From IMG/VR virus record IMGVR_UViG_3300045961_000121, positions 1 to 62,614 of that record: a stretch of 62,614 nt of DNA; one strand, 5' to 3'. Within the stretch, counting starts at the first letter, position 1; each line of letters opens with the position of its first letter. The notes under the pieces are model-generated. The model did no database searches and was not told the origin of the DNA. It saw only the letters and a list, made by a program, of their open reading frames with translations. The DNA comes from a virus. The position numbers and the translations under genes were made by a program. Shown here in pieces: positions 1 to 62,614 of this stretch.

Positions 1-126
1 TGGCCGACCTCGCCCGCCGCGCCGGGTGTGAGCCCGCCGACCTGCGGGAGAACCTGAGCCGCTACGCCAAGCCGCGCGGGAACCGGGCGAGGACGCTGCG
101 GACATGACCATCGACCCGGAGGCGTT
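1..126. repeat. Terminal repeat block A (left copy)
   Basis: This block is identical to 62365-62490. It shows that the window is a circular or circularly permuted genome opened inside the gene upstream of the large terminase. After base 126 the two copies diverge: here an HNH insertion follows, while the right copy continues directly into the terminase. The two copies rejoin at 588 and 62491. Confidence 0.95.
3..107 (+). CDS. Partial: C-terminal end of RHH-like protein upstream of terminase
   Basis: This is the last 34 codons of the protein encoded in full at 62094-62471; the 5' part is missing only because the window starts here. Its TGA overlaps the ATG at 104, which is the start codon of the uninterrupted terminase allele. 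See the full-length entry for its possible role. Confidence 0.8.
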   Translation, partial: ADLARRAGCEPADLRENLSRYAKPRGNRARTLRT

Positions 127-575
127 TGGTAAGATGGACCGTGGCTACCAAGAAGGCGCCGATCGTCGGGCGCGAGTACGCGATCAGCGACCTGTTCGAC
201 ATGCTGGAGGTCGCCGACTGCTGGCGCTTCGTCGGCCCGTTTGCCCCCACCCCGGAGGGCTACTTCCACCTCAACTGGAAGTGCCTGCCCGAGCGGTACG
301 CGCACCGCGCGGTGTGGACCCTGCTCGTGGGGCCCGTGCCCGATGGCATGGAGATCGACCACCTGTGCAGGATTCGGTCGTGCTGCAACCCGGATCACAT
401 GGAGATCGTCAGCCATGCCGAGAACATGCGCCGCCGTGGCAGTCAGGGGCTCTGCCGGGCTGGGCATCCGATGACCCCGGACAACGTGGTGCGCAACGGA
501 CGCCGCGCCAGTTCGCCGTCGCTGCTCTGCAAGAGGTGCCGACGTGAGTACCGGAAGAACCGAAGGGCCGCTTGA
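126..575 (+). CDS. HNH homing-type endonuclease inserted in the terminase start
   Basis: The protein has about 149 residues and an HNH_3-type core: Y-A-H-R, then E-I-D-H-L-C, then C-N-P-D-H, followed by a basic helix and a C-terminal Cys pair (C-K-R-C). Such enzymes nick or cut DNA and copy themselves into alleles lacking the insertion. The gene fills almost all of a 461-bp segment (127-587) absent from the right-end copy of the same locus. TTG at 126 lies on the insertion junction behind GGAGG; GTG at 141 gives a more typical N-terminus (M-A-T-K-K) and is an equally good start. There is no room for a group I intron core and 461 is not a multiple of three, so it is neither a splicing intron nor an intein. 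Its 3' end overlaps the relocated terminase start at 544. Confidence 0.85.
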   Translation: MVRWTVATKKAPIVGREYAISDLFDMLEVADCWRFVGPFAPTPEGYFHLNWKCLPERYAHRAVWTLLVGPVPDGMEIDHLCRIRSCCNPDHMEIVSHAENMRRRGSQGLCRAGHPMTPDNVVRNGRRASSPSLLCKRCRREYRKNRRAA

Positions 576-587
576 TCCGTCACTGTT
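127..587 (+). mobile_element. 461-bp HNH endonuclease insertion (allele-specific)
   Basis: The boundaries come from comparing the two ends of the window: 1-126 matches 62365-62490 and 588-711 matches 62491-62614 with nothing between them on the right. The insertion falls after codon 7-8 of the uninterrupted terminase (M-T-I-D-P-E-A-F). Its right end encodes D-P-S-L-F, closely echoing the displaced D-P-E-A-F. No clear target duplication is visible beyond a shared TT. Confidence 0.9.
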
Positions 588-1956
588 CAAGCGCTGGACC
601 CCCGCCGCGCAGGAGAAGGCGCTGGAGGCGCTGCGCGCCGCCCAGAACGACAACTGGCGCCCGTTCTACTGCCACGACCCCGCGTGCAACGGGATGCCGC
701 ACGACCGGTGGGAGTGGAACCACGCCCGCGCCGACCAGCGCCCGCCCACCGACCCGGACTGGCTGGTCTGGCTGCTCAAGTCCGGGCGCGGCTCGGGCAA
801 GACCCGGACCGGCACCGAGATGACCCACCGCGTCATCGAGAAGGTGCCCCGGATCGCGCTGATCGGGGCCACCGGCGCCGACGTGCGCGACATCATGCTG
901 GAGGGCGAGTCCGGCATCCTCAACGTGTACCCGCCGGGCAAGAAGCCGGTCCACGAGCCGTCGAAGCGCCGGGTCACCTTCCACAACGGGGCCGTGGCCA
1001 CCCTGTTCAGCGCCGAGGAACCCGACCGGCTGCGTGGCCCGGAGCACTACTGGGCGTGGTGCGACGAGGCCGCGCACTGGGCGCTCGTGCAGCAGGTGTG
1101 GGACAACCTGCTGTTCGGGCTGCGGCTCGGGGCCAAGCCCCGGATCGTGGTCACCACCACGCCCAAGCCGCGCCCGTGGCTCAAGGCCCTGATGAAGGAC
1201 CCGACCACCCGGATGTCGGTGGCCTCAACCTACGACAACCTCGCCAACCTGTCCTCGGTGTACCGCGACATCATCATCCCCAAGTACGAGGGCACCCGGC
1301 TGGGCCGTCAGGAGTTGAACGCCGAGGTGCTGGAGGATGTCGAGGGCGCCCTGTGGAACTGGGACATGATCGAGTCGCTGCGGTTCACCGACGCCCCGGA
1401 GCACATGGACCGGATCGTGGTCGCGGTGGACCCCGCCGGGTCGAAGAAGAAGAAGAACGACGAGACGGGCATCGTGGTGGTGGGCCGGTCCGGGGACCAC
1501 TTCTACGTGCTGGCCGACCGGTCCGGGCACTACTCGCCGAACGGGTGGGCGCGGGCGGTGATGGCCGCGTACGACGAGTTCAGCGCCGACGCGGTGATCG
1601 CCGAGACGAACTTCGGCGGCGAGATGGTCACCTCCAACCTGCGGGCCGCTGACTCGTTCCCCCGGATTCAGGAGGTCAACGCCAAGCGCGGCAAGGCGCT
1701 GCGCGCGGAGCCGGTCGTCGGGCAGTACGAGCGGAAGTTGGTGCACCACCCGCACGACGGGCTGCCGGAACTGGAGTCGCAGATGACCGAGTGGGTGCCG
1801 TATGAGGACACCGACTCCCCGGACCGGGTGGACGCGCTGGTGTACGGGGTCACGCATCTGGCCAAGGGCCTGCTCCCGGCTGGGATCAGCAGTCCGACGA
1901 ACCTCAAGCGCGACGCGGACGGGCGGCTGCGGGTCATCAAAGGCGGTGCCGCGTGA
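544..1956 (+). CDS. terL: Terminase large subunit (interrupted-allele form)
   Basis: This is the ATP-driven DNA packaging motor and headful or end nuclease, acting at the portal vertex. Over 470 residues a Walker A loop G-R-G-S-G-K-T lies at 81-87, a Walker B W-C-D-E at 172-175, and an RNase H-like nuclease domain has Asp296 (V-D-P-A-G) and a C-terminal Asp near 430 (P-D-R-V-D-A). In this allele translation must start at GTG 544 inside the 3' end of the HNH gene, because the insertion shifts the original ATG (104) out of frame. The first ten residues are therefore insertion-derived, and identity with the uninterrupted allele resumes at F-K-R-W. A strong match to actinophage terminases; certainty is high for function and moderate for the start. 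Confidence 0.95.
   Translation: MSTGRTEGPLDPSLFKRWTPAAQEKALEALRAAQNDNWRPFYCHDPACNGMPHDRWEWNHARADQRPPTDPDWLVWLLKSGRGSGKTRTGTEMTHRVIEKVPRIALIGATGADVRDIMLEGESGILNVYPPGKKPVHEPSKRRVTFHNGAVATLFSAEEPDRLRGPEHYWAWCDEAAHWALVQQVWDNLLFGLRLGAKPRIVVTTTPKPRPWLKALMKDPTTRMSVASTYDNLANLSSVYRDIIIPKYEGTRLGRQELNAEVLEDVEGALWNWDMIESLRFTDAPEHMDRIVVAVDPAGSKKKKNDETGIVVVGRSGDHFYVLADRSGHYSPNGWARAVMAAYDEFSADAVIAETNFGGEMVTSNLRAADSFPRIQEVNAKRGKALRAEPVVGQYERKLVHHPHDGLPELESQMTEWVPYEDTDSPDRVDALVYGVTHLAKGLLPAGISSPTNLKRDADGRLRVIKGGAA
588..711. repeat. Terminal repeat block B (left copy)
   Basis: This block is identical to 62491-62614 and lies inside the terminase gene. On the right it follows block A directly; here 461 bp of HNH DNA separates the two. 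Confidence 0.95.
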
Positions 1957-1989
1957 GGTCCGACTGCCATACTCCTCACGGGAGGTTCG

Positions 1990-2313
1990 ATGTGGGGCGT
2001 TGACTGGCCGACGCTGCTGGCCGCTGTCGTGGTCGGCACCCTCGGCGTCTCCCGCCTCACCCGCTTGGTCGTCGATGACGACTGGCCGCCGATGCTGTGG
2101 TTCCGCAGGGTGTGGGACCGGGTGTGGAAGCAGTCCCCGTGGGTCGCGCTCATCGAGTGCCCGTTCTGCGTGGCCCCTTACTTCGCCGCCGCGAGCATCG
2201 CGTGGGCGATCCTGTCCGACTTGCACTGGTCATGGTGGCTGTTCCATGGCTGGCTGGCGGTCGCGTATCTCGCAGCCATGCTGAATGTCCGCGACATCCC
2301 ACCGGAGGCATGA
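1990..2313 (+). CDS. Small membrane protein, DUF1360-like
   Basis: The 107-residue protein has a membrane segment at the N-terminus (L-L-A-A-V-V-V-G-T-L), a central E-C-P-F-C-V-A-P motif and a second hydrophobic half. The Cys pair preceding a membrane segment resembles DUF1360-type proteins found near the packaging genes of actinophages. It sits between terminase and portal with GGGAGG upstream, and its stop is two bases before the portal start. The function is unknown; a role in packaging at the membrane is only a guess. Confidence 0.75.
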   Translation: MWGVDWPTLLAAVVVGTLGVSRLTRLVVDDDWPPMLWFRRVWDRVWKQSPWVALIECPFCVAPYFAAASIAWAILSDLHWSWWLFHGWLAVAYLAAMLNVRDIPPEA

Positions 2314-2314
2314 C

Positions 2315-4087
2315 ATGGCCCGTACCCGCACCCGACCCGCCCCGGTGCCGGAGCACAACTCGCTGATCGCCAGCGCCCTGCGGATGCCGCCGGTGCAGCG
2401 CAACGCCGTCGGCAAGGCTCAGGCGTGGCAGGCCGAGGCGTGGCAGTTCTACGACCGGGTGGCCGAACTGCGGTTCGTGGCCAACTGGGTCGGCAACGTC
2501 ATGTCGCGGGCCAAGTTGGTCGTCGCCAAGCGGGTCGAGGACACCCTCGTGGTCCAGCACGACGGCGAGGCGGTCGAGGCGCTGGCCGCGTACCACGGCG
2601 GGTTGCAGGGACAGCAGCAGATGCTCCAGCAGGCCGGGGTGCACCTGACCGTCGCGGGCGAGTTCTACGACGTGATGCTCAAGGACATGTGGGCGGTGCT
2701 GGCCAACGACAAGGTGAACGGCACCTCCGGGTCGCTGACCTGCGACCTCGGGGACGGCAACCGGACCCCGATCCAGTCGAAGAAGGACATGGCCATCCGG
2801 GTGTGGACGCCGCACCCCCGCGAGCCGCTGCGCGCCGACTCCCCCACCCAGTCGAACCGGGGCACGCTGGCCGAGATCGCCACCCTGTCGGACCACATCG
2901 CTGCGCAGTTGGAGTCCCGGCTGGCCGGTGCGGGCATCCTGTGGGTGCCCAGCGAGATCACCTTCCCCACCCCGAAGGAGGCCGACCCGTCGGCATCGGT
3001 GGCCGATCAGTTCATGGCCGTGCTCGGCGAGGCGATGGTCACCCCGATCAAGGACCGCGCGTCGGCCAGCGCGATCGTGCCGATCGTGGTCACCGCCCCG
3101 GGCGAGTATCTGGAGAAGGCCCGGCACATGACCTTCTGGTCGGAGTTGGACGCCGAGACGATCAACATGCGCGACAACGCGGTGAAGCGGCTGGCCATCG
3201 GTCTCGACACCCCGCCCGAGGTGCTGCTCGGCATGGGCGACAGCAACCACTGGAACGCGTGGCTGGTGGACGAGGCCGCGATCAAGAGCCATCTGGAGCC
3301 CCGGTTGCAGGTGATCTGCCACGCGCTGACCGACGCGTACCTGCGTCCGGCGCTGACCGGCGCCTCGGACGCCGAGGACTACTACGTGCTGGCCGACACC
3401 TCCGACATCCGGCTGCGCCCGAACCGGTCGCGGGAGGCCGTGGAACTCTACGACCGGGGCGAACTGTCGGGCACGGCGCTGCGCCGGGAGACGGGGTTCC
3501 TCCCCGAGGACGAGCCCAAGGGCGAGGAGGAGCGCGAGTGGCTGCTGCGCCGGATCGCCTCCGGCTCGACCAGCCCGGAGCAGACGCAGGCCGCGCTCCG
3601 GCTGCTCGGCGCAGACCTCGGCCCGCTGCCGATCGAGGGCGAGATGCAGCCCCAGCCGACGATCCCGCCGGTGCTGCAACCACGCCGGTCACTGGAGGGC
3701 CACCCGGAGCACCGGGTGCCCGACCTCCAGCGGTCCACGAAGGACCGGGAGTCCCGCGAGGGCATGATCGCTGCCGCCGACGCGCTGGTCTACCGGGCGC
3801 TGGAGCGGGTCGGCAACCGGCTGTGCAACGGGACGATGAAGGCCCAGTTGGCCGACACGCCGTCGCACTGGCGCTACATGTACGTGGACACGGTGCCGGA
3901 GAATGCTGTCGATGGCGCGTGGGCGTTCGCCGCTGAGGTGCTTGAGGCAACAGGCAGCCCAGTGGACACCGCCCGCATCTGTGCGGCCATCGACGGGTAC
4001 GTCCGGTTCATCATCAACGACCAGCGCAAGCACCATCGGGACCTGCTGGAGGCCGCGCTGATTGCCGCCGGAGTGGTTGACCCGTGA
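2315..4087 (+). CDS. Portal protein
   Basis: The portal is the dodecameric ring at the head vertex through which DNA is packaged and ejected. The 590-residue product has the size, position (after terminase, before MuF/protease) and sequence character of gp6/SPP1-type actinophage portals, including a central T-P-P-E-V-L-L-G-M-G-D loop and an acidic, Pro-rich tail. The ATG at 2315 is preceded by GGAGG and chosen over an upstream in-frame ATG that overlaps the previous gene. The stop overlaps the next gene's GTG (GTGA), indicating translational coupling. Confidence 0.9.
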   Translation: MARTRTRPAPVPEHNSLIASALRMPPVQRNAVGKAQAWQAEAWQFYDRVAELRFVANWVGNVMSRAKLVVAKRVEDTLVVQHDGEAVEALAAYHGGLQGQQQMLQQAGVHLTVAGEFYDVMLKDMWAVLANDKVNGTSGSLTCDLGDGNRTPIQSKKDMAIRVWTPHPREPLRADSPTQSNRGTLAEIATLSDHIAAQLESRLAGAGILWVPSEITFPTPKEADPSASVADQFMAVLGEAMVTPIKDRASASAIVPIVVTAPGEYLEKARHMTFWSELDAETINMRDNAVKRLAIGLDTPPEVLLGMGDSNHWNAWLVDEAAIKSHLEPRLQVICHALTDAYLRPALTGASDAEDYYVLADTSDIRLRPNRSREAVELYDRGELSGTALRRETGFLPEDEPKGEEEREWLLRRIASGSTSPEQTQAALRLLGADLGPLPIEGEMQPQPTIPPVLQPRRSLEGHPEHRVPDLQRSTKDRESREGMIAAADALVYRALERVGNRLCNGTMKAQLADTPSHWRYMYVDTVPENAVDGAWAFAAEVLEATGSPVDTARICAAIDGYVRFIINDQRKHHRDLLEAALIAAGVVDP

Positions 4088-4338
4088 CCTCGTGGTGGTC
4101 ATGGGTCCTGACCGCCGTCGGCGTCACCGGCCTGTACTTCGCAGGCAAGAAGGTGTGGTGGGCGTGGCTCATCGGGCTGGGCGCGCAGGTGCTCTGGATC
4201 GCGTACGCGGTTGCGACCCGGCAGTACGGGTTCGTTGTCTCGGCGTTCGCCTACGGCTGGGTCTATGCCCGCAATGCAAGACTGTGGTGGGTGGGCCACC
4301 ACGACGATCGGAGCGACGATGAGCGAGTCAGCGCGTGA
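4084..4338 (+). CDS. Small two-pass membrane protein
   Basis: The 84-residue, Trp/Tyr-rich protein has two hydrophobic stretches (about residues 4-20 and 25-55) and a charged C-terminus. It overlaps the portal stop by four bases and runs into the start of the head polyprotein, so it is translationally coupled at both ends. Similar tiny membrane proteins occur beside portals in actinophages. It lies too early in the operon to be an obvious holin. Function unknown. Confidence 0.7.
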   Translation: MTSWWSWVLTAVGVTGLYFAGKKVWWAWLIGLGAQVLWIAYAVATRQYGFVVSAFAYGWVYARNARLWWVGHHDDRSDDERVSA

Positions 4339-7300
4339 GGAGTTCCGTGTCTCCCGGCTCAAGGAGATGGACCGGGTGTCCGCCGAGTTGTTCGGTGCGA
4401 TCGACCAAGCCCTAACCGCTGGGCTGACAGGTGAGGACTTCGCTAACGCGATCGACTCCGCGCTGTACGCCGCGTTCCTCGTGCAGTACGAGGCCGAGGG
4501 GATGTCCCCGTTCGCCCTGTACGACAACCCGCGCCGGGCGTGGGAGTGGTTCGCCAAGCGGGTCCGGCGCGGGCTGGAGGCGGTGACCGATACGTCGGAG
4601 GCCAAGCGGATTGCCGACTGGCTGGGCACCGCCGTGGTCAACGGGGCCAAGATGGCCGGGACGCAGAGCGAGGGCGGCAAGATGTGGCTGTCCCGCCGGG
4701 ACGCGAAGGTGCGCCCTTTCCACGTCGAGGCCGACGGGCAGGTCGTCGGCTGGGGCGAGCCGTTCATCGTGTGCGGGGAGATCGGGATGTTGTTCCCCGG
4801 CGACCCGGTGGGTGACCCGGAGTGCTGGCTGAACTGCCGGTGCGTCGCGGCGCCCGCCGTGCTGGAGGAGACGCTGACCGCCGCCGCCCATGACGCGATC
4901 TTCTACGAGGGGCGCCGGACCCCGGAGATCGTGCCGAAGGGGCAGCCCGGGAAGAAGGGCGGCGCGGGGACGAAGGCCGGGAAGGTGGTCAAGCGCCGAC
5001 CGCTGACCGCCGATGAGGAGAAGCGGATCAGGGACGGGAAGTGGCTGCGGGTGAACCGGGACGGGAAGAAGCCCGGCCAGCCCGGGTACATGGAGCGCAA
5101 GTCGAAGGTGCGCCCGCAGAACAACGCGGTCGAGGGTGAGGAGTTCGCCGCCGACTCCAACGCGACCGGCAAGGTCATCGTGGCCATTCCAACGCAGGAC
5201 GATCCGATTTGGGATGCGTCCAGCGAGCCGGTCCCGCACATGACGATGATCTGGCTGGGCAAGCAGGAGTTCACCCCCGAGGACTGGGGAGCCATCCTCG
5301 GTGCCGTCCAGTCGGCTGCCGAGCAGTTCGGTGAGATCGAGGGTCCGCAGGAGTTGGCCGTGACCAGCCGGGAGCCGCTGGGTGACGACAACGCCGACGT
5401 GCTGATGCTCGACGCGGGTCGGATGGCCGCGCTGCGGAACTACATGCTGACCCACGAGACGATCCGCCGGGCGTACGAGGCGGTGGACCAGTACCCGAAG
5501 TGGACGCCGCACGTCACGCTCGGTTACCCGGAAACCCCGGCGAAGGGCGAGCCGGGTGAGACGATTCGGTTCGATCGTCTGGCAGTCTGGGACGGTGACT
5601 ACGAGGGTGAGGAGTACCCGATGAGCGTCGCGGTCGAGGAAGATGTGCCCGTCGTGGACGAGGATGAGCCGATTTCCCACGGTGGGAACCCGGAAGATGA
5701 GGACTGGTCGGTGGAGCCGGTGCCGTGGAACGGCGTGCTGGCTCCCGAGGGCATCCCGTCCGGTGACGGGCGCCGGTTCGCGCCGGGCGCGCTGGAGTGG
5801 CGCGACCTACCGATCCCGCTGCTGTGGCAGAAGTCGAACGGCATGGGTCACGAGGGCGCGGTCATCGTCGGCCAGATCAACCGCATCTGGCGGGACAACC
5901 ACCTGCTGCGCGGGGCCGGGTTCTTCGCCGACACCCCGGAGGCCGATGAGGTGATCGGGCTGTACGCCGAGGGTCACGCGCGCGGAGTGTCGGTGGACGT
6001 GGACAGCGCGGAGATGGCGGTGGAGGACGAGGAGGCGCAGTCGATCCTGTTCAACAAGGGCCGGATCAGCGCCGCCACGCTGTGCGCGATCCCCGCGTTC
6101 GCCGAGGCGTACGTCGTGCTGGGCGAGTGGGTGGAGCCCGAGGCGGACTCGATGTTCGCTGCGCTGGTCACCCCGGAGGAGTTCCGGGCCAGCGTGAACT
6201 CGCCGACCGGGCCGGTGACCGGCGGGGAGGACGTGCCGCTGCCGTTCCGCGAGTACGACACCGAGTCGCGCAAGCGGATGGCCAAGGAGGGTGTCGCCAT
6301 GCCCGACGGGTCCTACCCGATCGCGGACGAGGAGGACTTGCGCAACGCGATCCAAGCGATCGGTCGGGCCAAGGACCCGAAGGCCGCACGGGCGCACATC
6401 AAGAAGCGGGCGAAGGCGCTGGGCAAGGGCGACGTGGTGCCGGAGGGCTGGTCCGATGAGGGTGCCCTGCTCTGCGCGTGCCGTGGCTGCGACACCTTCG
6501 ACTGCGGCGAGGACGGCTGCTCCTGCTGCTGGTCCTACAACGACAGCGACGCTCCGGTGTTCGCGCCGGAGTACCCGAGGGGAGAGCCGGTGGCCGCATC
6601 AGCCGCCGAGTTCAAGCGCGGGCCGGGCTGGGTCACCGACCCGGTGGCGACGAAGCGCATCCACGACTACTGGACCAAGCCCGGTGAGGAGGGTTACGCG
6701 AAGATCGGCTGGGGCACCCCGGGCGACTTCCGGCGGCTGCGCGCGCATCTGGCCAAGTACATCGGCCCGCAGTTCCTCAACCGGACCGTGGCGCAGTGGC
6801 ACCACGACGCGCTGGGCTACTGGCCGGGCGAGAAGGGCAAGCCGGGCAACCCGATGGCCCTCGGTGCCCCGTCCCCGGCGCTGCACCTCGTGGCCGCTGG
6901 CGGCTGGTGCGCCCCGTCGGAGTGGTTCGATGACCCGTCGCTGGAGGGTCCGACCGCGCTGACGATCACCGACGAAGGTCGGGTGTTCGGCCATCTGGCG
7001 ACGTGGGGCACCTGCCACATCGGCATCCCCGGAGTGTGCACCGAGCCGCCGACCTCGCAGACCGACTACGCCTACTTCATGACCGGCAGCGTGCGGACCG
7101 CCGAGGGCACCGACGTGGCCGTCGGCCAGATCACCATGGGCACCGGCCACGCGAGCACCGCGCGCGGGGTCAGCGCCCGGCAGGCCGCAGCCCACTACGA
7201 CAACACCGGCACGGCGGTGGCCGACATCCGGGTGGGGCAGGACGACTTCGGCATCTGGGTGGCCGGGGCCATGCGCCCGAGTGCGACCGAGGAGCAGCGG

Positions 7301-18698: not shown

Positions 18699-20459
18699 AT
18701 GAGCAGCAGGAACCCCGGCAACATCCCACGTCCCGCGTCGGTTGAGGACTGCTACAGCCCGGCGTTCACCGCTGGTCCTCCCGGGCCGATCGGCCCGACT
18801 GGTGCGAAGGGCGACTTCGGCCCGACGGGTCCGACTGGGCCGTGTGGCCCGATCGGTCCGACGGGACCGTTCGGTGGTCCGACCGGCCCGACCGGTGAGG
18901 CTGGGCCGTTGGGGCCGACTGGCCCGACGGGGCAGCAGGGGTTGCAGGGCTGGCAGGGTCCGGTCGGCCCGAAGGGTGACAAGGGTGACCGGGGCGACCG
19001 AGGACTTGACGGTCCGACTGGTCCGCAGGGCGTTCAGGGCGTTCAGGGCCAGCAGGGCACGGTGGGGCCGACCGGCTCGGTTGGGGCCACGGGTCCGACG
19101 GGTGCCAGTGGGGCTGCTGGGCCGACAGGGGCGTCGGGCCCGACCGGCTCGCAGGGGCCCACTGGTTCGGTTGGTCCAACGGGCCCGCAGGGTGTGGCCG
19201 GACCGACAGGGCCGAGTGGGGCGTCCGGCCCGCAGGGTGCGCAGGGTGTGACGGGGCCCACGGGTCCGCAGGGTGTGGCTGGCCCGACGGGTGCGTCTGG
19301 GCCTACCGGAGCATCTGGGGCCACTGGCCCGACGGGACCGGCTGGGGCCGACGGCAACTCGGTCACGATCAAGGGGTCGGTGGCGAACTCTGGTGCGCTG
19401 CCGCCGACCGGGAACGCCGAAGGTGACGGCTACATCACGAACAACGACGGCCACCTGTGGGTGTGGACCGGCACGGCGTGGTCCGATGTCGGCCTCGTGC
19501 GCGGCCCGACCGGCCCCACGGGCAGCGTGGGCCTCACTGGCCCGACCGGCCCGACTGGCTCTGCTGGAACCGTTGGTGCCACGGGCCCGACTGGGGCTGC
19601 CGGGGCTGCCGGTGCCACGGGCCCGACTGGGGCTTCGGGGGCCGTCGGTGCGACCGGCCCAAGCGGCGTGGCTGGTGCAGTCGGCCCGACCGGCCCGTCC
19701 GGGGCGAAGGGTGACACCGGCAACACGGGCGCCACGGGCCCGACGGGCCCTGCGGGTGCTGCGGGGCCGACCGGTCCGACTGGCGCTCAAGGGCCGCAGG
19801 GCGTGCAGGGCCAGCAGGGCGTGCAGGGCGTGCAGGGCATCCCCGGGCCTACCGAGGTGTCTACCGACCCGAACAACATGGCCACCCTCGGCGGCGACGG
19901 GCTGCTGTTCGTTCCGCTGGTCACCGGCGGCACCGGCACGGATGAGGTCATCATCCAGCCGTCGCTGCCCGACGACCCCGATCTGGAACTGTGGGTGGAC
20001 CCCAGCGCCTCGGCGGGTGCCTTGTCGCTGGAGCACTCGGCGCTAGCAGCACTCGGCGCTGACGACCATCCGCAGTACCTCAACGAGGCGCGCGGCGACG
20101 CCCGGTACGTTCCGGCGGCGGGCGGCACGATGACCGGGCAGTTGTCACTCCCGGCCCCGTCTAGTGCGTCCAGCGCAGCCCGCAAGAGCGACGTGGATGC
20201 GGTGGCGAACCGCAGCGTGATCGCAGGCAACGGCCTGACCGGCGGCGGCGCGCTGACCGCTGACCGTACGATCAACGTCGGCGCCGGAACAGGCATCTCG
20301 GTGGCCGCTGATCTGGTGGCGCTGGACACCGCATTCGCTGACGCCCGGTACCTGACCCGCGACGCTGGCACCGGGAACAGCGAGGCGGTCATCTCGTCCA
20401 CTGCGGCACCGTCGGGCACGCCCAGCCAAGGCGTCGGCACCGTGTGGGTCCAATACTGA
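18699..20459 (+). CDS. Collagen-like tail fibre 1
   Basis: The 586-residue fibre has Gly-X-Y triplets, mainly G-P-T and G-P-Q, from about residue 28 to 215 and 275 to 385. They are interrupted by a 55-residue module (V-T-I-K-G-S-V ... [10 protein letters not shown]) that recurs in the fibre at 22212. The C-terminal 190 residues are globular ([12 protein letters not shown]) and resemble phage fibre heads. Such proteins form trimeric stalks. The region is repetitive in sequence, so assembly collapse or expansion is possible. Confidence 0.85.
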
Positions 20460-20469
20460 GGAGGTCCCC

Positions 20470-22197
20470 GTGCCGGTGTCGGTGTGGAACGGCTCGTCGT
20501 GGGTGCCTGCCAAGGCGATGCCGGTGTGGAACGGCTCGTCGTGGGTGCCGGGCAAGAAGGCGAAGGTGTGGAACGGCTCGTCGTGGGTGCTCGCATGGGT
20601 GCCGCCGGTCGTCTCAGCCACCCTGTCGCTGTCCAAGACCGGGGTCAGCACGGGGGAGGCGTACAGCGTCACCCTGACCGCGCCGGGCGGCTTCCCCGAG
20701 GGTGCTGTGGTCACGTTCCGGTTCACCGGCTACTCGACCACGGTCAACCCGGCAGAGGGCGCGACGACGGCCACCATCTCTGGGGCATCGCACGCCTCGG
20801 CTGGGTCGTTCGCGTGGTACGCCGACGTGGCGACCAAGGGCGGCAACACTACGTTCGGGCCGACCACCCAGACGGCGACCGTGCCTGCACCGACACACTT
20901 CCATGAGGTCGTTCCGTCGGGGTCCGGGCGGCAGCAGATTCAGGACGCGATGGACCGCGCCTACAACTTCTTCATGGCCAATCAGACCGGCACGGCGGTG
21001 AACTTCGACAACGAGCAGACGATGGCCTGCGTCGAACTTCCGGCTGGCGCCACGTACACCCTCGACGGCCCGCTCTACGTCCGGCGCGGTGTGCGCCTGA
21101 TCGGCGGCGGGTCCGGCGCGTCCCGCCCACTCATCAACGCGCAGACCGCTGACTCGATCATGTTCCGCACCGGCAACAACGGCGGCGGCGGCTACCTGTC
21201 CCCGTTCTACGACTGGCTGGTGCAGAACATCCGGCTGAACTGCTCGGGCTGGACGGGCGGGTTCTCCATCTCGCACTGCAAGCGGTTCCGCATCAAGGGC
21301 TGCGACTTCACCGGGCTCGGCGGCAAGAAGCACTACGTCGAGATCAACTCCTCCGGCGGGCCTCGGGCGGACGGCACGTTCAACGTGGAGGTGCTGAACT
21401 GCTACTTTACGATGCCGAACGGCTCATCGAACCCGAACAAGCCGCGTCGCACCGAGGACGAGTGCGTGCAGGCTGACTACTCGTGGACAGCCTCAGCGTC
21501 GGACGTGGCCAACGACGGCACGATGGCGAACAACATCCTCGTGGACGGCTGCACGTTCTACCGGGTGCCCCGGGGCGTCGGCAGCCACCACTACGAGGAT
21601 GGTGTTGGTGGCGAGGCCCCTCCGCTGGGCATCCACGCCAACATCGTCGTCCAGAACTGCACTTTCCAAGAGGTCAACCCGACCACCTACGGAGATGGGG
21701 CGAACGGGTCCGGGTCCGAGGGTGCGGTGAGGGCGTACTTCTGGTCCAACGTGCACATCCTGAGCAACACGTTCATCGACTGCCTCCAGCCGATCAACCT
21801 CTACATCCAAGCCGAAGCCTCGACGCGCAACGGGGAGCCGCGCTACACCCGGATCGCGGGCAACGTCATCCGCAACAAGACCTCGACCCGTCCCGGGATC
21901 AACGCCACCTCGGCGCACCCGACGCTGCGTTTCGAGCAGGTGCTCGTGGAGTACAACAACGTGGACGGGACGTGGGGCGGCACGGACTACTTCGTGGCGA
22001 TCGAGGACACCGGTACGGAGACGCTGCCCGCGTCGGCTGACACGGTGGTGATCCGCAACAACCTGTTCGCTCCGTCGAACCTGACTGTTGCTGAGGAGAA
22101 GGCGTACAACAAGTACCGGGCGAAGGGCTCAAACAACGCGGGCGGCGTGCTGATCTACGACAACACCGTCAGCGACGGCGCTGTGGACAACTCGTAG
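20470..22197 (+). CDS. Tailspike-like protein with beta-helix and WNGSSWV repeats
   Basis: The 575-residue protein opens with three tandem V-W-N-G-S-S-W-V repeats spaced 16-18 residues apart, then an Ig-like domain (about 45-140), then a long right-handed beta-helix region ([11 protein letters not shown], repeated N-x-x-V/I turns to about 560). Beta-helix spikes typically bind or cleave surface polysaccharide. Catalytic residues cannot be assigned by eye. The start GTG 20470 follows GAGG. The W-N-G-x-x-W-V motif recurs at the C-terminus of the 25165 protein. Confidence 0.75.
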
Positions 22198-22211
22198 GGG
22201 AGGATGGCGCC

Positions 22212-25163
22212 ATGAGCCTGCTGATGGTGACGGTGTTCGACCGGTACCTGCGTGCCGACGGGACGCCGCACACCGGCAGTGTCGCGTTCACCCCGCTCAC
22301 GACGGCGCCGAACATGAACGCGCCGGGCACGGTCACCGAGACTCCGGTGGAGGCCCCGCTCGATGCGGACGGGTCGTTCAGCGCGGAGTTGATCGACTCG
22401 TTCGACCCGGGCTGGATGGTCGATGGCCCGGTGATCTACAAGGTGCGGGTCCGCCTCGATGGGGTGGACCTGACGTACCGGGCGATCTTCACCGGGTCGG
22501 AGCCGATCCGGCTGTCCGACGTGCTGCCGACGGACTGCATCCCCGGGCCGATCATCCCGGTGCCGGGCGCTCAGGGCCCGACGGGTCCGACGGGTGAGGC
22601 TGGGCCGACTGGGCCTCTGGGGCCGACCGGCCCGGCGGGGATCGCGGGCCCGACGGGTGCTCAGGGTCCGACTGGGATGCAGGGCCCGGCTGGCGCGTTG
22701 GGCCCGACCGGTGCTCAGGGTAGCGCCGGGCCGACCGGACCAACCGGGACATCGGGGGCCACAGGTCCGACGGGTGCATCCGGGTCGTCGGGACCGGCTG
22801 GCCCGACTGGGCCGACTGGCGTGCAGGGGCCTGCTGGCTCTGCTGGTCCGCAGGGGCCTGCTGGCCCGACCGGTGCGACCGGGGCCACGGGCGCTACCGG
22901 CGCGGCTTCGACGGTACCCGGCCCGACAGGCCCGACAGGTGCCACAGGTCAGCGCGGTGCGACCGGCTCCACTGGTGCGTCGGGCCCGACCGGCCCGACT
23001 GGGGCATCAGGCCCGCAGGGTGTGCAGGGCGTCCAAGGTCCGACTGGGCCGCAGGGAGTCGCTGGCCCGACGGGGCCACAGGGGGTGGCCGGTCCGACCG
23101 GCCCAACCGGCGCGCAGGGTGTCGTCGGCCCGACTGGTCCCACCGGCGGGCAGGGTGTCGCTGGCCCTACCGGCCCGACTGGGGCGCAGGGTGTGCAGGG
23201 TGTGCAGGGTCCGACCGGCGCTGCTGGTCCGACGGGTCCGACGGGCGCACTGGGTCCGACAGGCCCGACTGGGGCATCGGGTCCGACTGGAGCGGCTTCG
23301 ACGGTACCCGGTCCGACCGGTCCGACTGGTGCGACGGGCTCGCCGGGCACGGGCGTCACGATCAAGGGCTCGGTGGACGACTCCGGCCAACTTCCCACGG
23401 TGGGAAATGCGACCGGCGACGGGTACATCACCACGGACACCGGCCATCTGTGGACGTGGGACGGTGACTCGTGGGTGGACGCGGGCCCGATCGTCGGCCC
23501 CACCGGCCCGACTGGTGCGACGGGTCTGACGGGGGCGACTGGGCCTACCGGGGCTCAGGGCCCGCAGGGCTCGCAGGGCGTGCAGGGCGTCACCGGTCCG
23601 ACGGGTCCGCAGGGGCTCCAAGGTGTGATCGGCCCCACTGGTCCGCAGGGCGTTGCGGGGCCCACGGGTCCGACCGGGACTGGGGGTGCTGCTGGTGCCA
23701 CCGGCCCGACCGGTCCATCGGGGGCTGTCGGTGCCACTGGTCCGACCGGGGCTCAGGGAGGTGTCGGCCCGACTGGCCCGACTGGGGCGTCCGGCAGCGT
23801 CGGTCCCACCGGCCCGCAGGGGGTCGCAGGTCCGACTGGTCCGACGGGCGCATCGGGTGCGGCTGGGTCGATCGGTCCTACCGGCCCGACGGGTGCGTCT
23901 GGCACGGCTGGTGCGACGGGATCGACCGGACCGACTGGGCCCACGGGCGCGCAGGGCATTCAGGGGGTGGCCGGGCCGACCGGGCCGCAGGGCTCCATCG
24001 GCCCAACGGGACCACAGGGCGTGCAGGGCGTCATCGGCCCCACCGGTGCCACGGGAGCAGCGTCCACGGTGCCCGGCCCCACCGGGCCGACTGGGGCCAG
24101 CGGCACGGCTGGTGCTACGGGTGCCACGGGTCCGACCGGCGCGTCTGGCCCGCAGGGCATTCAGGGTCCGACTGGGCCGCAGGGTGTGCAGGGCATTCAG
24201 GGCAACACCGGTGCCACTGGCCCGACGGGTGCGAGCGGGACGGCGGGTGCCACAGGCGCCACTGGGCCGACGGGTGCGGTAGGCCCGACCGGGCCGCAGG
24301 GCATTCAGGGTGTCGCTGGTCCCACAGGTGCGCAGGGCACCGTTGGTCCGACCGGTCCGACAGGGGCGTCAGGAACAGCGGGCTCGACGGGTGCGACTGG
24401 TCCCACCGGCGCATCCGGCCCGACGGGACCGGCTGGTTCCATCGGGCCCACTGGCGCGTCTGGAACGGCGGGCCCGACAGGCCCCACGGGGGCCTCTGGT
24501 GCCACGGGGCCGACAGGCGCATCTGGCACTGCTGGCACAGTGGGTCCGACTGGGCCAACTGGGGAGCCCGGCCCGACGGTGGTGTCCACGGACCCGAACA
24601 ACGCGGCCACCATCGGTGGTGACGGATTCATCTACGTCGATGCGTCCGGCATGGGCGGCGGCACCGGGGACCACGGGGAACTGACCGGGCTGGCTGACGA
24701 CGACCACCTCCAGTACCCGCTGATGTTCGCGCAGCCGGACACCCCGTCGCTGCCGGTGCCGGTCAGCGAGCGGACCGCGCTGTGGTGGGACACCGACGAC
24801 GACCCGGTGGGCACCGGCCCGCAGGGCCCGATCGGCCCGACCGGTCCCACTGGCCCGCAGGGGGTTGTCGGCCCGACAGGACCGACCGGCCCACAGGGCA
24901 TCCAAGGCATCCAAGGCATTCAGGGCATCCAAGGTGTGCAGGGACCGACCGGCCCCACGGGCCCGCAGGGCATCCAAGGGCCGACTGGGCCTACCGGGCC
25001 GCAAGGTGTCATCGGGCCGACCGGACCGACCGGGCCCCTTGGTCCGACCGGCCCCACGGGACCGACCGGGCCTACTGGTCCGACGGGCAACGCGAACGTC
25101 ATCATCTCGGCCACCCGCCCGGCGTCTGCCGATCCGGGCACGATCTGGGTGCCGAGCACCTGA
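22212..25163 (+). CDS. Collagen-like tail fibre 2 (giant)
   Basis: The 983-residue fibre has a globular N-terminal domain (about 1-110, [13 protein letters not shown]) that probably docks to the tail. It is followed by several hundred residues of G-P-T-rich triplets, one copy of the 55-residue V-T-I-K-G module, and a short globular island ([16 protein letters not shown]) before a final collagen segment. G-A-A-S-T-V-P-G breaks recur three times and may be flexible hinges. One palindrome copy lies inside the V-T-I-K-G module. Confidence 0.85.
23392..23406. promoter_or_regulatory. Dispersed palindrome, candidate operator 4
   Basis: TTCCCAC-G-GTGGGAA inside the giant fibre, read L-P-T-V-G-N. The paralogous module in fibre 1 has L-P-P-T-G-N and no site. 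Confidence 0.6.
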
Positions 25164-54344: not shown

Positions 54345-54359
54345 TTCCCACCGTGGGAA
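54345..54359. promoter_or_regulatory. Dispersed palindrome, candidate operator 19
   Basis: TTCCCAC-C-GTGGGAA upstream of the 75-residue gene. Confidence 0.65.
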
Positions 54360-54376
54360 CCGGGGTGGTGCAGGTG

Positions 54377-54760
54377 TTACTTGAGCGTGCCGAACTGCCT
54401 GTCTCGGTGACAGGTCAGGCATCGGCGCTCGGTGCGACCGTCGCTGAACTTGACGATGTTGTCCTCGGTCAGCGGATGGCCGCGCTTGCAGTGCGTCTGG
54501 TTGTGGCGCCAATGGCGGCGCCTCTCCACCATGTCGGCAGCGTTGTCCGCCTTGGTCCCGATGAGCAGGTGCTCCGGGTTGATACATGGCGGGTTGTCAC
54601 AGGTGTGGCGGACCACCATCCCGGGTGGGACGGAGCCCTTCGCCACGATGTAGGCCATGACGTGCGTCGGCACTATGTAGTGGGCCTTCGGCCCGACTTG
54701 GATTCGGCCCCGTCCGTAGCGGCCCGGCTTGCCGCCCTTGGCGATGATGCAGTCGCTCAC
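54377..54760 (-). CDS. HNH endonuclease (HNH_3-like)
   Basis: The 127-residue protein has M-V-V-R-H-T-C-D-N-P-P-C-I-N-P-E-H-L-L-I-G-T and N-A-A-D-M-V-E-R-R-R, then a zinc-type C-K-R-G-H and C-L-T-C-H at the end. It is closest in plan to the terminase-inserted HNH (both end in a Cys pair after a C-x-x-G-H-P segment), so these two probably share a recent origin. The GTG at 54760 lies 13 bp downstream of a palindrome. Confidence 0.85.
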   Translation of the reverse strand: MSDCIIAKGGKPGRYGRGRIQVGPKAHYIVPTHVMAYIVAKGSVPPGMVVRHTCDNPPCINPEHLLIGTKADNAADMVERRRHWRHNQTHCKRGHPLTEDNIVKFSDGRTERRCLTCHRDRQFGTLK

Positions 54761-54772
54761 CTATGTCCTCCC

Positions 54773-54787
54773 TTCCCACGGTGGGAA
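54773..54787. promoter_or_regulatory. Dispersed palindrome, candidate operator 20
   Basis: TTCCCAC-G-GTGGGAA between the candidate promoter (54798-54838) and the HNH start. Confidence 0.65.
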
Positions 54788-54797
54788 CCTCCCGCCG

Positions 54798-54838
54798 TGT
54801 CTGTGACATATCCTATCACATAGGTGGTGCAACCTTTC
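54798..54838 (-). promoter_or_regulatory. Leftward promoter-like element
   Basis: On the minus strand GGTTGCACCACCT is followed by GTGATAGGATATG, containing TAGGAT, a good actinobacterial -10. The same two blocks recur at 57107-57140. The gene served is the HNH endonuclease. Confidence 0.5.
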
Positions 54839-55397
54839 AGTACCGGGTCATGTGCTCCCGGCAGTCGGTGTCCTCCCAGTCCGGGTCGGACCAGCGCTGC
54901 TCCCCGCAGCGGTGGCACACCTCAGTGCGGTCGAGGCGGAACTCACCGTCGTGCCACCACCACATGCCGCCGACGGTGTGGCTGTTCAGCCACTCCTCCG
55001 AGTCGTCCACGATCGTCTGCCAGTGGTCGGCGTGGGCCCAGTCCTCGCGGTGGTACCACTCGTCGTACGTGGCCACCGCACCCTGCGCCATCTCGTCGTG
55101 CATCCCCAGCGACAGGGCCTCGGCGACGAGGTGCTTGGCCACGTAGTGCCCGAACGAGGACGACCCGCCTGACATCACGCCCGGCACGCAGCCGACCCCG
55201 TTGCACTCCAGCACCGGGACCGGCTCGGCAAACGACACGCTGGCGAACAACGCCTGCGTCGCCAGTTCAGGGGTGCTCCCGCCACGCTCGGCAAGCGGGA
55301 TGCCGAACGAGCCCGGGTCGTTCAGGGTCGCGGTCGCCGACCCATCCTCGTGCACCTCGACGGACAGGTCGAAGTGCAGGGTGTACGGCTTGCTCAT
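54837..55397 (-). CDS. Hypothetical protein, 186 residues
   Basis: Beta-rich N-terminus (L-H-F-D-L-S-V-E-V-H-E-D-G-S-A-T-A-T-L), Trp-rich middle and a C-terminal C-H-R-C-G-E-Q-R-W with a further C-R-E-H, a likely zinc site. The ATG follows CTTGGAAGGAGAG. Confidence 0.6.
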   Translation of the reverse strand: MSKPYTLHFDLSVEVHEDGSATATLNDPGSFGIPLAERGGSTPELATQALFASVSFAEPVPVLECNGVGCVPGVMSGGSSSFGHYVAKHLVAEALSLGMHDEMAQGAVATYDEWYHREDWAHADHWQTIVDDSEEWLNSHTVGGMWWWHDGEFRLDRTEVCHRCGEQRWSDPDWEDTDCREHMTRY

Positions 55398-55419
55398 GTC
55401 TCTCCTTCCAAGAGGACAG

Positions 55420-55435
55420 TTCCCACGGGTGGGAA
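55420..55435. promoter_or_regulatory. Dispersed palindrome, candidate operator 21
   Basis: TTCCCAC-GG-GTGGGAA upstream of the 186-residue gene. Confidence 0.65.
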
Positions 55436-55457
55436 GTAGGTGCTGACTGCACCGCTT

Positions 55458-55482
55458 GGTACCGGGACGGTGCCCCGGTACC
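55458..55482 (-). terminator. Terminator hairpin after lipoprotein gene
   Basis: Perfect 9-bp stem GGTACCGGG / CCCGGTACC with a 7-base loop, 11 bases past the lipoprotein stop. Confidence 0.65.
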
Positions 55483-55493
55483 GCGCGCTGATG

Positions 55494-55916
55494 TCAGATG
55501 CTCGCGGTGCGCTGCACCTCGTACAGGACGAACACGGCGTCAGCCGGGACCTCATCGAGGAACACGGCCTCATCGGTCTTGGTCTGGCCCGGACGCAGCC
55601 GCTCGATGTACGTCGAGGTGGTGGCGTACTGCTCGGCGCCGTCCTTGCTCTCGGCAGCGACGGTGATCCAGTAGTCCGACGCCTTGGTCGAGTTGTTCGT
55701 GACCTTCACCGGCACCTTGGCGATGCCGTACTCGGTGGTGGCCTTCTTGCCCTGCACCTTCACGTCGGCAGTGGCGTCGTTGGAGCCGATGCCGGACGAC
55801 ACGGTGGTGTCGTTGACGGACGGCGCGTCGGTGGTCGTGTCGCTGCCAGCAGAGCAGGCGGCGATGGTGAGCAGAATGGCGGCGCCACCGATGGCAGCCT
55901 TGGTGATCTTCTTCAT
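55494..55916 (-). CDS. Secreted lipoprotein
   Basis: The 140-residue protein has a signal peptide (M-K-K-I-T-K-A-A-I-G-G-A-A-I-L-L) and lipobox T-I-A-A-Cys21. A Thr/Ser/Asp-rich spacer and a small beta domain follow (V-P-V-K-V-T-N-N-S-T-K-A-S-D-Y-W, L-R-P-G-Q-T-K-T). The domain resembles DUF4352-type extracellular domains of actinobacterial lipoproteins. Phage lipoproteins are known to block superinfection (for example Ltp of TP-J34 and Llp of T5). It has its own start element, upstream palindrome and terminator, so it may be expressed as a single-gene unit. Confidence 0.8.
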   Translation of the reverse strand: MKKITKAAIGGAAILLTIAACSAGSDTTTDAPSVNDTTVSSGIGSNDATADVKVQGKKATTEYGIAKVPVKVTNNSTKASDYWITVAAESKDGAEQYATTSTYIERLRPGQTKTDEAVFLDEVPADAVFVLYEVQRTASI

Positions 55917-55940
55917 GGTGTGCTCCTTCCAGAGCGGTAG

Positions 55941-55955
55941 TTCCCACGGTGGGAA
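55941..55955. promoter_or_regulatory. Dispersed palindrome, candidate operator 22
   Basis: TTCCCAC-G-GTGGGAA upstream of the lipoprotein gene, 5-8 bp before its start-associated element. Confidence 0.65.
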
Positions 55956-55977
55956 GTGAGCCGGTCGGCTCGGGAAA

Positions 55978-56001
55978 GGCAGGGACCGTCGGGCCCCTGC
56001 C
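55978..56001 (-). terminator. Terminator-like hairpin
   Basis: GGCAGGG / CCCTGCC 7-bp stem with a 10-base loop, 19 bases past the 56020 gene stop. It isolates the lipoprotein transcript. Confidence 0.55.
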
Positions 56002-56019
56002 CTCCACGTGTGACCGGGA

Positions 56020-56397
56020 TCAGGTGATGCAGCCACACGACCAGAGGATCATCCCGTCGCCGGTGTCCACATGGTCCGGGGTGGCCTCGGGGTGCACGTC
56101 GCACTGCCACTGGTAGGACGGGTTGCACCGCCACTCCACGTCGGCGGGCAGGGTGGTCCCGTCGATGAGCAGGTTGCACGCGTGGCACTGGATCGCACCG
56201 TCGCCGAGGTCGGCGAAGTGGTGCGCGGGCCATGGACCGGTGGCCTCGGGCCCGGGGCAGCCGATCGGCAGGGGACCGTGGTCGCTGACCACGCCCTCGC
56301 CGAAGTCCGGTGTGGTGACCCCGCACCCGAAGCACTGGTCCTCGGGTGTCTGGTCGGGGTCGGTGCCCACGGACAGCCAGCGGTGGAACGTGCTCAT
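56020..56397 (-). CDS. Cys-rich protein with two zinc-like knuckles
   Basis: The 125-residue protein has C-F-G-C-G-V, C-H-A-C-N and C-G-C near the end, separated by acidic loops. Its start overlaps the next gene by four bases (ATGA). Function unknown. Confidence 0.6.
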   Translation of the reverse strand: MSTFHRWLSVGTDPDQTPEDQCFGCGVTTPDFGEGVVSDHGPLPIGCPGPEATGPWPAHHFADLGDGAIQCHACNLLIDGTTLPADVEWRCNPSYQWQCDVHPEATPDHVDTGDGMILWSCGCIT

Positions 56398-57053
56398 GCC
56401 GCACTTCCCACCGTGGGAACGCTGGCCTCGGCGCGGGCGGCCTTGTTCGCCTGACCCCACGACGAGTACCCGGCGAACTCTCCCACCGTGTCGATGCCGT
56501 GGCCCTCGCCCTTCCACACCCGGACGGTGTACCGCCGCACGTTGTGCGGAGGTGTGGCGTAGATGTCCATCTCGGAGGACACGAAGTAGACCGCACCGTT
56601 GGGAGTCCGGTACCCGGTGTCCCCGACCCGGGCCCGCCACCAGCGCATCGTCTCCGGGCTGAACCACTTGGCGTTGGCCCGGCGCACCGCAGCGAGGGTC
56701 ACCGTCTCGAATCCCACGGTGGGAACTGGCTCATGGACCGTCTCGGTGCGCAGCCACATCCTCACCGCGCCTTGCTGAATCGAGGTGAACTGGCTGTACT
56801 TCACGTCGGGCATGGTCCACACCCCATCGACAAGCCACGCCAGCGGCGTGTCCCACGACATGATCGTGTAGTCCACCCGGTTCGGGAACTCGGAGCGCCA
56901 CGGTTCAGGCAGCCACCCGAAGGTGCCGGGCATCCCGACCACGCCCCGGAACGATCCGGTCGTGTTGCTGAACGGCTTGCGCTGGCTGACCAGCACCCCG
57001 GCTCGTTCGCGGGCCTCTCGTGAGGTCTTGAGCCCCAGTCGATCGTCGTGCAT
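56394..57053 (-). CDS. Hypothetical protein, 219 residues
   Basis: Trp-rich protein: G-W-L-P-E-P-W-R-S-E-F-P, W-F-S-P-E-T-M-R-W-W-R. It carries two palindrome copies in its coding sequence (both read P-T-V-G), one at its very C-terminus. The ATG follows TTCTGGAAGGAGCACAC. Family not recognised. Confidence 0.55.
   Translation of the reverse strand: MHDDRLGLKTSREARERAGVLVSQRKPFSNTTGSFRGVVGMPGTFGWLPEPWRSEFPNRVDYTIMSWDTPLAWLVDGVWTMPDVKYSQFTSIQQGAVRMWLRTETVHEPVPTVGFETVTLAAVRRANAKWFSPETMRWWRARVGDTGYRTPNGAVYFVSSEMDIYATPPHNVRRYTVRVWKGEGHGIDTVGEFAGYSSWGQANKAARAEASVPTVGSAA
56405..56419. promoter_or_regulatory. Dispersed palindrome, candidate operator 23
   Basis: TTCCCAC-C-GTGGGAA in the last codons of the 219-residue gene, 8 bp upstream of the start of the next gene. 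Confidence 0.6.
56711..56725. promoter_or_regulatory. Dispersed palindrome, candidate operator 24
   Basis: ATCCCAC-G-GTGGGAA, internal to the 219-residue gene. Confidence 0.55.
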
Positions 57054-57078
57054 GTGTGCTCCTTCCAGAAGCGCCGGG

Positions 57079-57093
57079 TTCCCACGGTGGGAA
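57079..57093. promoter_or_regulatory. Dispersed palindrome, candidate operator 25
   Basis: TTCCCAC-G-GTGGGAA between promoter-like element 57107-57140 and the start-associated element of the 219-residue gene. Confidence 0.65.
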
Positions 57094-57106
57094 CCTCGGG
57101 TCGTGC

Positions 57107-57140
57107 TTGCACTAGTCTATCACACAGGTAGTGCAACCTC
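57107..57140 (-). promoter_or_regulatory. Leftward promoter-like element with TTGCACTA inverted repeat
   Basis: TTGCACTA and TAGTGCAA form a perfect inverted repeat (57107-57114 / 57129-57136). Minus strand reads GGTTGCACTACCT then GTGATAGACTAG, with TAGACT as a likely -10. It shares both blocks with 54798-54838. Confidence 0.5.
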
Positions 57141-57419
57141 TCAGCGGTTGAGGGTGATCCGGTACACCTCGCGCATCCGCTCCGCGCGCTTGGCCACGGC
57201 CTTCGGCATCGGCGTGCCGTACGCGTGCCCATCGGTCGGGTCGAAGTGCACGAAGTCCGAGCGCCACGGACCCACGATGAACGCGAGGTCGGCCAACCGC
57301 CCGTTGCAGTGCGCCGGGTAGATCACAGCCCACCCGCCCACCTCGGTGCGGTACTCGCCGTCGGTCACCGTCACCGCGAACCTCGGCGGCTTCCCACCGT
57401 GGGAACCGGCGGCGCTCAC
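57141..57419 (-). CDS. Hypothetical protein, 92 residues
   Basis: GTG at 57419 overlaps the preceding stop (GTGA) and is preferred to the ATG 15 bases upstream. Beta-rich protein with G-W-A-V-I-Y-P-A-H-C-N-G. A palindrome occupies codons 5-9. Confidence 0.55.
   Translation of the reverse strand: MSAAGSHGGKPPRFAVTVTDGEYRTEVGGWAVIYPAHCNGRLADLAFIVGPWRSDFVHFDPTDGHAYGTPMPKAVAKRAERMREVYRITLNR
57391..57405. promoter_or_regulatory. Dispersed palindrome, candidate operator 26
   Basis: TTCCCAC-C-GTGGGAA at the start of the 92-residue gene (read G-S-H-G-G). Confidence 0.6.
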
Positions 57420-57757: not shown

Positions 57758-57790
57758 TGCGTGCTCCTTCCAAGAGCGGGTGATCCACGC

Positions 57791-57805
57791 TTCCCACGGT
57801 GGGAA
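57791..57805. promoter_or_regulatory. Dispersed palindrome, candidate operator 27
   Basis: TTCCCAC-G-GTGGGAA between the 57416-57757 and 57822-58226 genes. Confidence 0.65.
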
Positions 57806-57821
57806 ACGGGTGTTTCTGACG

Positions 57822-58226: not shown

Positions 58227-58279
58227 GTGTGTGCTCCTTCCAGTGAGCGGTCGTTGATCCGGGCGGATCGCACAGCCCA

Positions 58280-58294
58280 TTCCCACGGTGGGAA
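58280..58294. promoter_or_regulatory. Dispersed palindrome, candidate operator 28
   Basis: TTCCCAC-G-GTGGGAA upstream of the 134-residue gene. Confidence 0.65.
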
Positions 58295-58316
58295 CGGACC
58301 ATGCCACGCGTCCGGG

Positions 58317-59179: not shown

Positions 59180-59208
59180 ACCGGGCCACCATCACGAGCA
59201 CCGGGGCG

Positions 59209-62116: not shown

Positions 62117-62471
62117 CCCGCCGGAGATGGCCGACGCCGACGCGGAGGCGGGCCGGATGCTGGCCACCGACGCCGACCGCGCCCGGGAGGCCCGGGACTG
62201 GCGCACCGCCACCGCCGGGGGCCCGCCCGCCGTCGTCGCCCGCGAGTCCACCCCGGACCGGTGGAACTGCTACGTCACCTTCGGGGTGGTCGCCGCCCGT
62301 GAGGTGGCCAAGGCGGCAGCCGCCGACGGGGTGCACCCCAGCGAGTACATCAGGAGCACGGTGCTGGCCGACCTCGCCCGCCGCGCCGGGTGTGAGCCCG
62401 CCGACCTGCGGGAGAACCTGAGCCGCTACGCCAAGCCGCGCGGGAACCGGGCGAGGACGCTGCGGACATGA
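62094..62471 (+). CDS. RHH-like protein between terS and terL
   Basis: The 125-residue protein starts at ATG 62094 behind GGAGGAGG inside the previous gene. Its second half, Y-V-T-F-G-V-V-A-A-R-E-V-A-K-A-A-A, then H-P-S-E-Y-I-R-S-T-V-L-A-D-L, fits a ribbon-helix-helix or MobC-like DNA-binding domain. It may assist packaging-site recognition. Its stop overlaps the terminase ATG (ATGA). The 3' end is duplicated at 1-107. Confidence 0.65.
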   Translation: MSSPLRRDPPEMADADAEAGRMLATDADRAREARDWRTATAGGPPAVVARESTPDRWNCYVTFGVVAAREVAKAAAADGVHPSEYIRSTVLADLARRAGCEPADLRENLSRYAKPRGNRARTLRT

Positions 62472-62490
62472 CCATCGACCCGGAGGCGTT
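62365..62490. repeat. Terminal repeat block A (right copy)
   Basis: Identical to 1-126; here it runs straight into block B with no HNH insertion. Confidence 0.95.
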
Positions 62491-62614
62491 CAAGCGCTGG
62501 ACCCCCGCCGCGCAGGAGAAGGCGCTGGAGGCGCTGCGCGCCGCCCAGAACGACAACTGGCGCCCGTTCTACTGCCACGACCCCGCGTGCAACGGGATGC
62601 CGCACGACCGGTGG
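62468..62614 (+). CDS. terL: Terminase large subunit, uninterrupted allele (partial 5' end)
   Basis: M-T-I-D-P-E-A-F followed without a break by K-R-W-T-P-A-A-Q, then identical to codons 16 onward of the gene at 544. It shows the ancestral or insertion-free start, with ATG in an ATGA overlap. Truncated by the window end. Confidence 0.9.
   Translation, partial: MTIDPEAFKRWTPAAQEKALEALRAAQNDNWRPFYCHDPACNGMPHDRW
62491..62614. repeat. Terminal repeat block B (right copy)
   Basis: Identical to 588-711. Confidence 0.95.

Follow-up and report, generated by a model that had tools for sequence, protein, structure and literature searches.

A free-standing HNH homing element of 461 bp has in all likelihood inserted recently into codon 8 of the terL gene of an actinophage-like virus; genomes with the filled and the empty site would coexist, and a restart of terL at the 3' end of the element would keep the filled genomes viable. 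The window analyzed here is the entire IMG/VR virus record IMGVR_UViG_3300045961_000121 (62,614 nt, positions 1 to 62,614), which carries the filled allele at its left end and the empty allele at its right end. The record is a complete or near-complete circularly permuted actinophage-like genome of 62.6 kb, because the gene order across its joined ends matches that of known phages and because a sister lineage is collinear with the window and unbroken through the point where the window ends. The order across the joined ends (ParB-like, TerS-position, RHH-position, TerL, small membrane protein, and portal genes) is the one annotated in the Arthrobacter phages BruhMoment, Tank, Rizwana, and others. 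The sister lineage comprises four contigs, G001-G003 and the short L007; G001-G003 are at least 99.94% identical to one another and were thus counted as one lineage rather than three. In these three contigs, the homologues of window positions 60869-62614 and 585-4083 are continuous and uninterrupted.

Comparison of the two window ends revealed that positions 1-126 are 100% identical to 62365-62490, and positions 585-711 to 62488-62614, with no other long repeats found between the ends. When 127-587 is cut out of the left end, what remains is identical to the right end at every position (1-126 joined to 588-711 equals 62365-62614), which bears out the coordinates given by the first-pass annotation, a 461-bp insertion at 127-587 and an empty junction at 62490/62491. 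Its perfect flank matches of 126 and 124 bp were also confirmed, except that a 3-nt tie (GTT at 124-126 and at 585-587) lets the boundaries slide by 3 nt, and the right flank measures 124 or 127 nt by the placement of this tie. The left flank of the filled allele (1..126, plus strand) contains the end of the upstream RHH-position gene, terL codons 1-7, and two bases of codon 8 (ATG104...GCG TT). The inserted element (127..587, plus strand) is absent from the other window end and from the sister-lineage loci L004-L007. The empty allele (62365..62614, plus strand) holds the terL start without the insert and is cut by the contig end.

Perfect matches of 126 and 127 nt cannot plausibly be due to chance. 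In the closest lineage besides this one, ~15% of positions differ across the left 126 nt and ~4% on the right side, so the two alleles stem from near-identical genomes. The earlier claim of an HNH presence/absence polymorphism in terL therefore holds with respect to these near-identical backgrounds, but it overlooked that the lengths of the flank matches are set by the assembler. The overlap lengths are most likely not biological and equal the assembler (de Bruijn) word of 127, and flank identity further out is thus invisible in the contig. The first 127-mer of the contig is also the first that only the filled allele has, and the contig stops at the first 127-mer that both alleles share again. 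With a word length of 127, contigs break in exactly this manner at a two-allele bubble of the assembly graph, which is established assembler behavior. Most likely, then, the contig ends at such a bubble with k = 127, although the left overlap of 126 nt is one short of the simplest expectation, leaving one base unexplained. Since a bubble forms only where reads from both alleles have the same flanking sequence over at least the word length, both alleles were probably present in the sample, and they presumably come from different virions. On the strength of these sequence comparisons, we regard a genuine presence/absence polymorphism as highly probable.

The element carries a single, apparently intact HNH open reading frame (141..575, plus strand), which runs from GTG141 (144 aa) or TTG126 (149 aa) to the stop codon at 573-575. 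The protein matched the HNH_3 profile (PF13392) with an E-value of 7e-18 and 64.4 bits versus a curated cut-off of 24.8, as well as PHROG 826 (E 9e-34). Residues D73, H74, and N95 and the zinc-site residues C105/H109/C130/C133 are invariant across its relatives (alignment A2), and the protein thus possesses the catalytic D-H pair, the distal N, and the zinc ligands expected of an HNH_3 endonuclease; the catalytic residues of I-HmuI are D74/H75/N96. An AlphaFold model of fair quality (pLDDT 74) retrieved the His-Me homing endonucleases I-PpoI and I-HmuI as its first five PDB matches in a fold search, none of them significant, and a PDB sequence search gave meaningless matches or none. When composition was checked for signs of a foreign origin, the GC content was 66.2% versus 68.6%, and the GC3 of the HNH gene was 88% versus 94-95% for its neighbors. 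Within native terL codons (CCG GAG GCG), a GGAGG motif (118..122, plus strand) located 3 nt before TTG126 is a possible Shine-Dalgarno sequence for the HNH gene, and the upstream gene at 62094 has the same GGAGG with the same 3-nt spacing. The HNH gene may use this host motif as its ribosome-binding site.

The window contains a second HNH_3 gene (54377-54760, minus strand; Pfam E 8e-11), which is intergenic and absent from the sister-lineage contig G003. Its insert, ~435 bp long, includes a copy of a 15-bp palindrome that recurs in the genome; this copy lies just before the HNH start. This palindrome, TTCCCACNGTGGGAA, occurs in 23 exact copies (27 for its 13-bp core) between 5674 and 60961 and is densest at 54345-60961. 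The copies often stand in front of small minus-strand genes and resemble repressor or start-associated sites of actinophages. Adjoining the palindrome is a repeated leader, CTGGAAGGAGCACGC, with 20-nt copies at 54311, 55912, 57048, 57753, and 59104, each just before the start codon of a minus-strand gene. A 118-nt direct repeat was also found at 18787-24103 in four diverged copies (60-74% identity) and is repeated in the sister lineage too.

The first-pass annotation rightly placed a real insertion in terL but missed that an out-of-frame insert wrecks the gene unless it is restarted, and that the element itself appears to supply the restart. The insert sits in codon 8, and because its 461 nt are 2 mod 3, a terL frame opened at ATG104 cannot be carried on beyond it. 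The interrupted native frame (104..547, plus strand; 147 codons, no recognizable protein) runs into the element and ends at TGA545-547, and this stop is overlapped by GTG544. The 3' end of the insert provides a Shine-Dalgarno-like AAGAGG region followed by GTG544 (532..546, plus strand), a candidate terL start within the 3' end of the HNH gene, and 14 codons leading in frame into terL. Anti-Shine-Dalgarno pairing is -9.4 kcal/mol before GTG544 versus -6.0 for the native ATG. The restarted terL (544..1956, plus strand; 470 aa) matched Terminase_6N (E 3e-24) and Terminase_6C (E 5e-16; alignment A1), and its N-terminus MSTGRTEGPLDPSLFKRW replaces MTIDPEAFKRW. The conserved DPxxF motif is thereby recreated with different codons, MTIDPEAF becoming MSTGRTEGPLDPSLF. 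In the empty allele, the native terL start MTIDPEAFKRWTPAAQEKALEAL... (62468..62614, plus strand) is open at the contig end and specifies the same IDPEAFKRW N-terminus as L004-L007. Among random positions, 3.1% have a start this strong within 60 nt upstream, and 1.7% of random 6-mers are as DPxxF-like as the tail; both figures are modest, and the evidence for the restart is suggestive, short of proof. The junction is also conditioned on a surviving terL, in that some restart is a precondition of phage viability. The N-termini of this TerL family differ in length and sequence, so the altered N-terminus is probably tolerated.

Of the two states, the empty one is ancestral and the filled one derived: the sister lineage and all judged TerL relatives are without the insert. 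The judged relatives came from 38 IMG/VR loci and seven cultured phages; L033 was excluded as it begins at a contig edge. The sister lineage reads ATGACCACCATCGACCCGGAGGCGTTCAAGCGCTGG uninterrupted, with the N-terminus IDPEAFKRW, and was the only match of a search with the empty junction. TerL proteins of the IMG/VR relatives (45-98% identity) start with IDPEAF, FDPEAF, IDPEAY, IDPDLY, IDPNVY, and so on, and those of the cultured Arthrobacter phages with VDPNVWKSW or IDPEEWKKW. A motif-based scan, which could miss degenerate copies, found no HNH gene at the terL start of the judged IMG/VR relatives. No second filled copy was found in the viral contigs, in the junction search, or in the genome_contigs collection, which counts against the homing reading; a search for the right filled junction with a degenerate tail likewise found no other copy. 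The closest HNH relative in the viral contigs was a 40% partial match located elsewhere, and the genome_contigs collection yielded no close relative. None of the HNH matches checked in Gordonia, Microbacterium, Streptomyces, Clavibacter, and Rhodococcus phages is inserted at terL. Other insertions were observed in two TerL relatives. In L057, terL (2799-4949) contains an intein (Hint_2, E 2e-7) near ...GPQHH/CAWLDEP, inside which an HNH_3 endonuclease (3518-3982; E 3e-15) is encoded in a different reading frame. In L055, terL (1414-4140) contains a large intein-like insertion, ending in VPTHN and with LAGLIDADG-like stretches, in the ATP-binding GRGTGK/T motif. In the Arthrobacter phages L012, L014, and L016, the interval from the RHH gene to terL holds different extra genes (PnuC-like, DNA methyltransferase), and this region is therefore variable.

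Several other explanations of the two window ends were considered. An assembly artefact, in which one end was grafted from another genome and no polymorphism exists, would account for repeats of assembler-word length that sit exactly at the contig ends. However, the sister lineage passes uninterrupted through the homologous empty junction, the joined gene order is that of cultured phages, and the 253 nt of flanks are 100% identical, against the ~15% (left) and 4% (right) divergence of the nearest relative. We therefore judge an artefact improbable, and the sister-lineage continuity together with the Arthrobacter gene order rules against the right end being a graft from an unrelated genome, the possibility that the first-pass annotation had named as fatal to its reading. 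Slightly less probable still is a role of the HNH protein as a packaging cofactor of the HK97 gp74, GVE2, or skunavirus HrdP type rather than as a homing enzyme. Its gene does abut terL, and packaging-linked HNH proteins are usually encoded beside the terminase, as in all 89 GVE2-like HNH genes, which lie between TerL and portal (PMC12724721). The present gene, in contrast, interrupts terL instead of adjoining it, and it is evidently dispensable, given that one of the two alleles in the population and every relative that could be judged do without it; the packaging-associated genes are fixed neighbors of terL, whereas this one is absent at the site in the sister lineage as well.

We find it hardly credible that the insert is a self-splicing intron or an intein, with TerL produced as MTIDPEAFKRW once the insert is spliced out. 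Group I introns often harbor HNH genes, and exact removal of the insert would restore the ancestral terL; however, only 26 of its 461 nt lie outside the HNH reading frame, Rfam gave no match even at E<=1 in window positions 1-1000, so that no ribozyme core was detected, and none of the four possible boundaries fits a group I splice site, in which the exon ends in U and the intron in G. These three results rule out a group I intron. An intein is ruled out by the length of 2 mod 3, by the stop of the native frame inside the insert at 545-547, and by the absence of a match to a Hint splicing domain. A further reading is compatible with homing and concerns the origin of the tail: the filled allele may have arrived from a related phage with an old HNH-terL junction, and the tail would then be the start of the donor's terL rather than an evolved mimic. 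The tail encodes LDPSLF, which resembles native N-termini such as IDPDLY in L025, and donor-derived gene ends are known for endonuclease elements of fungal mitochondria (PMC3630166). On the other hand, no phage was found with this tail or with an HNH gene at this site, and, by eye, the tail shares at most 6/14 nucleotides with the native terL start upstream of GTTC. We consider a donor origin of the tail rather unlikely, though far less so than the artefact, packaging, or splicing readings.

In the favored explanation, a recent homing insertion, the HNH enzyme would cut the empty terL start, and repair would copy the element in (intronless homing). The 3' end of the element would double as a new terL start, with its Shine-Dalgarno sequence, GTG544, and 14 codons restoring DPxxF, and the split site would then be immune to cutting. 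Presence and absence at one exact site with identical flanks is the pattern of a free-standing homing element, and active homing of the HNH element is plausible. More tentatively, at somewhat less than even chances, it may represent an 'N-terminal replacement' homing element, one directed at the beginning of an essential gene. Such an element would take the host GGAGG as its own ribosome-binding site and bring along a recoded ribosome-binding site, a start codon, and an N-terminal motif for that gene, making its insertion harmless and self-protecting.

Among known systems, an out-of-frame HNH insertion has been described inside an actinophage methylase gene (the ShiLan type; PMC11855218). The present element resembles it in lying out of frame in a protein gene, with a GTG a few nucleotides into the insert, no intron or intein signature, and presence/absence among close relatives. 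In ShiLan, however, the host frame stays open through the insert, whereas here terL, an essential gene, has its native frame broken at codon 8 and stopped at TGA545-547, and it receives a new Shine-Dalgarno sequence, start codon, and N-terminus from the element. Mobile open reading frames of fungal mitochondria with replacement gene ends (Allomyces atp6; Glomus atp6, atp9, cox2, and nad3; PMC3630166) likewise combine a homing-endonuclease element that splits an essential gene with a diverged replacement of the severed part, although they replace the C-terminus and encode LAGLIDADG or GIY-YIG enzymes, in contrast to the N-terminus and the HNH enzyme of this phage. The seg/mob free-standing endonucleases of T4, which move by intronless homing, are similar in the small size of the gene and in overlapping starts and stops that suggest translational coupling (mobE/nrdA); the examples considered from that source lie between genes or overlap gene ends, and none is said to restart a gene downstream of the point where it has been split (PMC2988022). 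In metagenomic islands of cryoconite phages from natural populations, homing endonucleases and terminase genes rank among the regions that most often vary or are missing from some variants (PMC7468147), but those variants were inferred from read recruitment, whereas the present contig shows the two alleles directly, one at either end. That co-occurring phages can differ in the presence of an HNH gene is already known, and the terL N-terminal replacement is a modest novelty; the open-access literature searched yielded no description of a phage element that replaces the beginning of the gene into which it has inserted.

Such a polymorphism can keep a complete phage genome from closing in assembly and leave a near-repeat between the two contig ends; systematic searches for this signature could uncover recent homing events. 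Selfish endonuclease genes in essential genes usually survive by splicing, as introns or inteins, or else sit between genes. If the N-terminal replacement reading is true, the element would do at the N-terminus, in a phage, what the fungal elements do at the C-terminus. The case suggests a third way in phages, which is to break a gene at its start and bring a new one.
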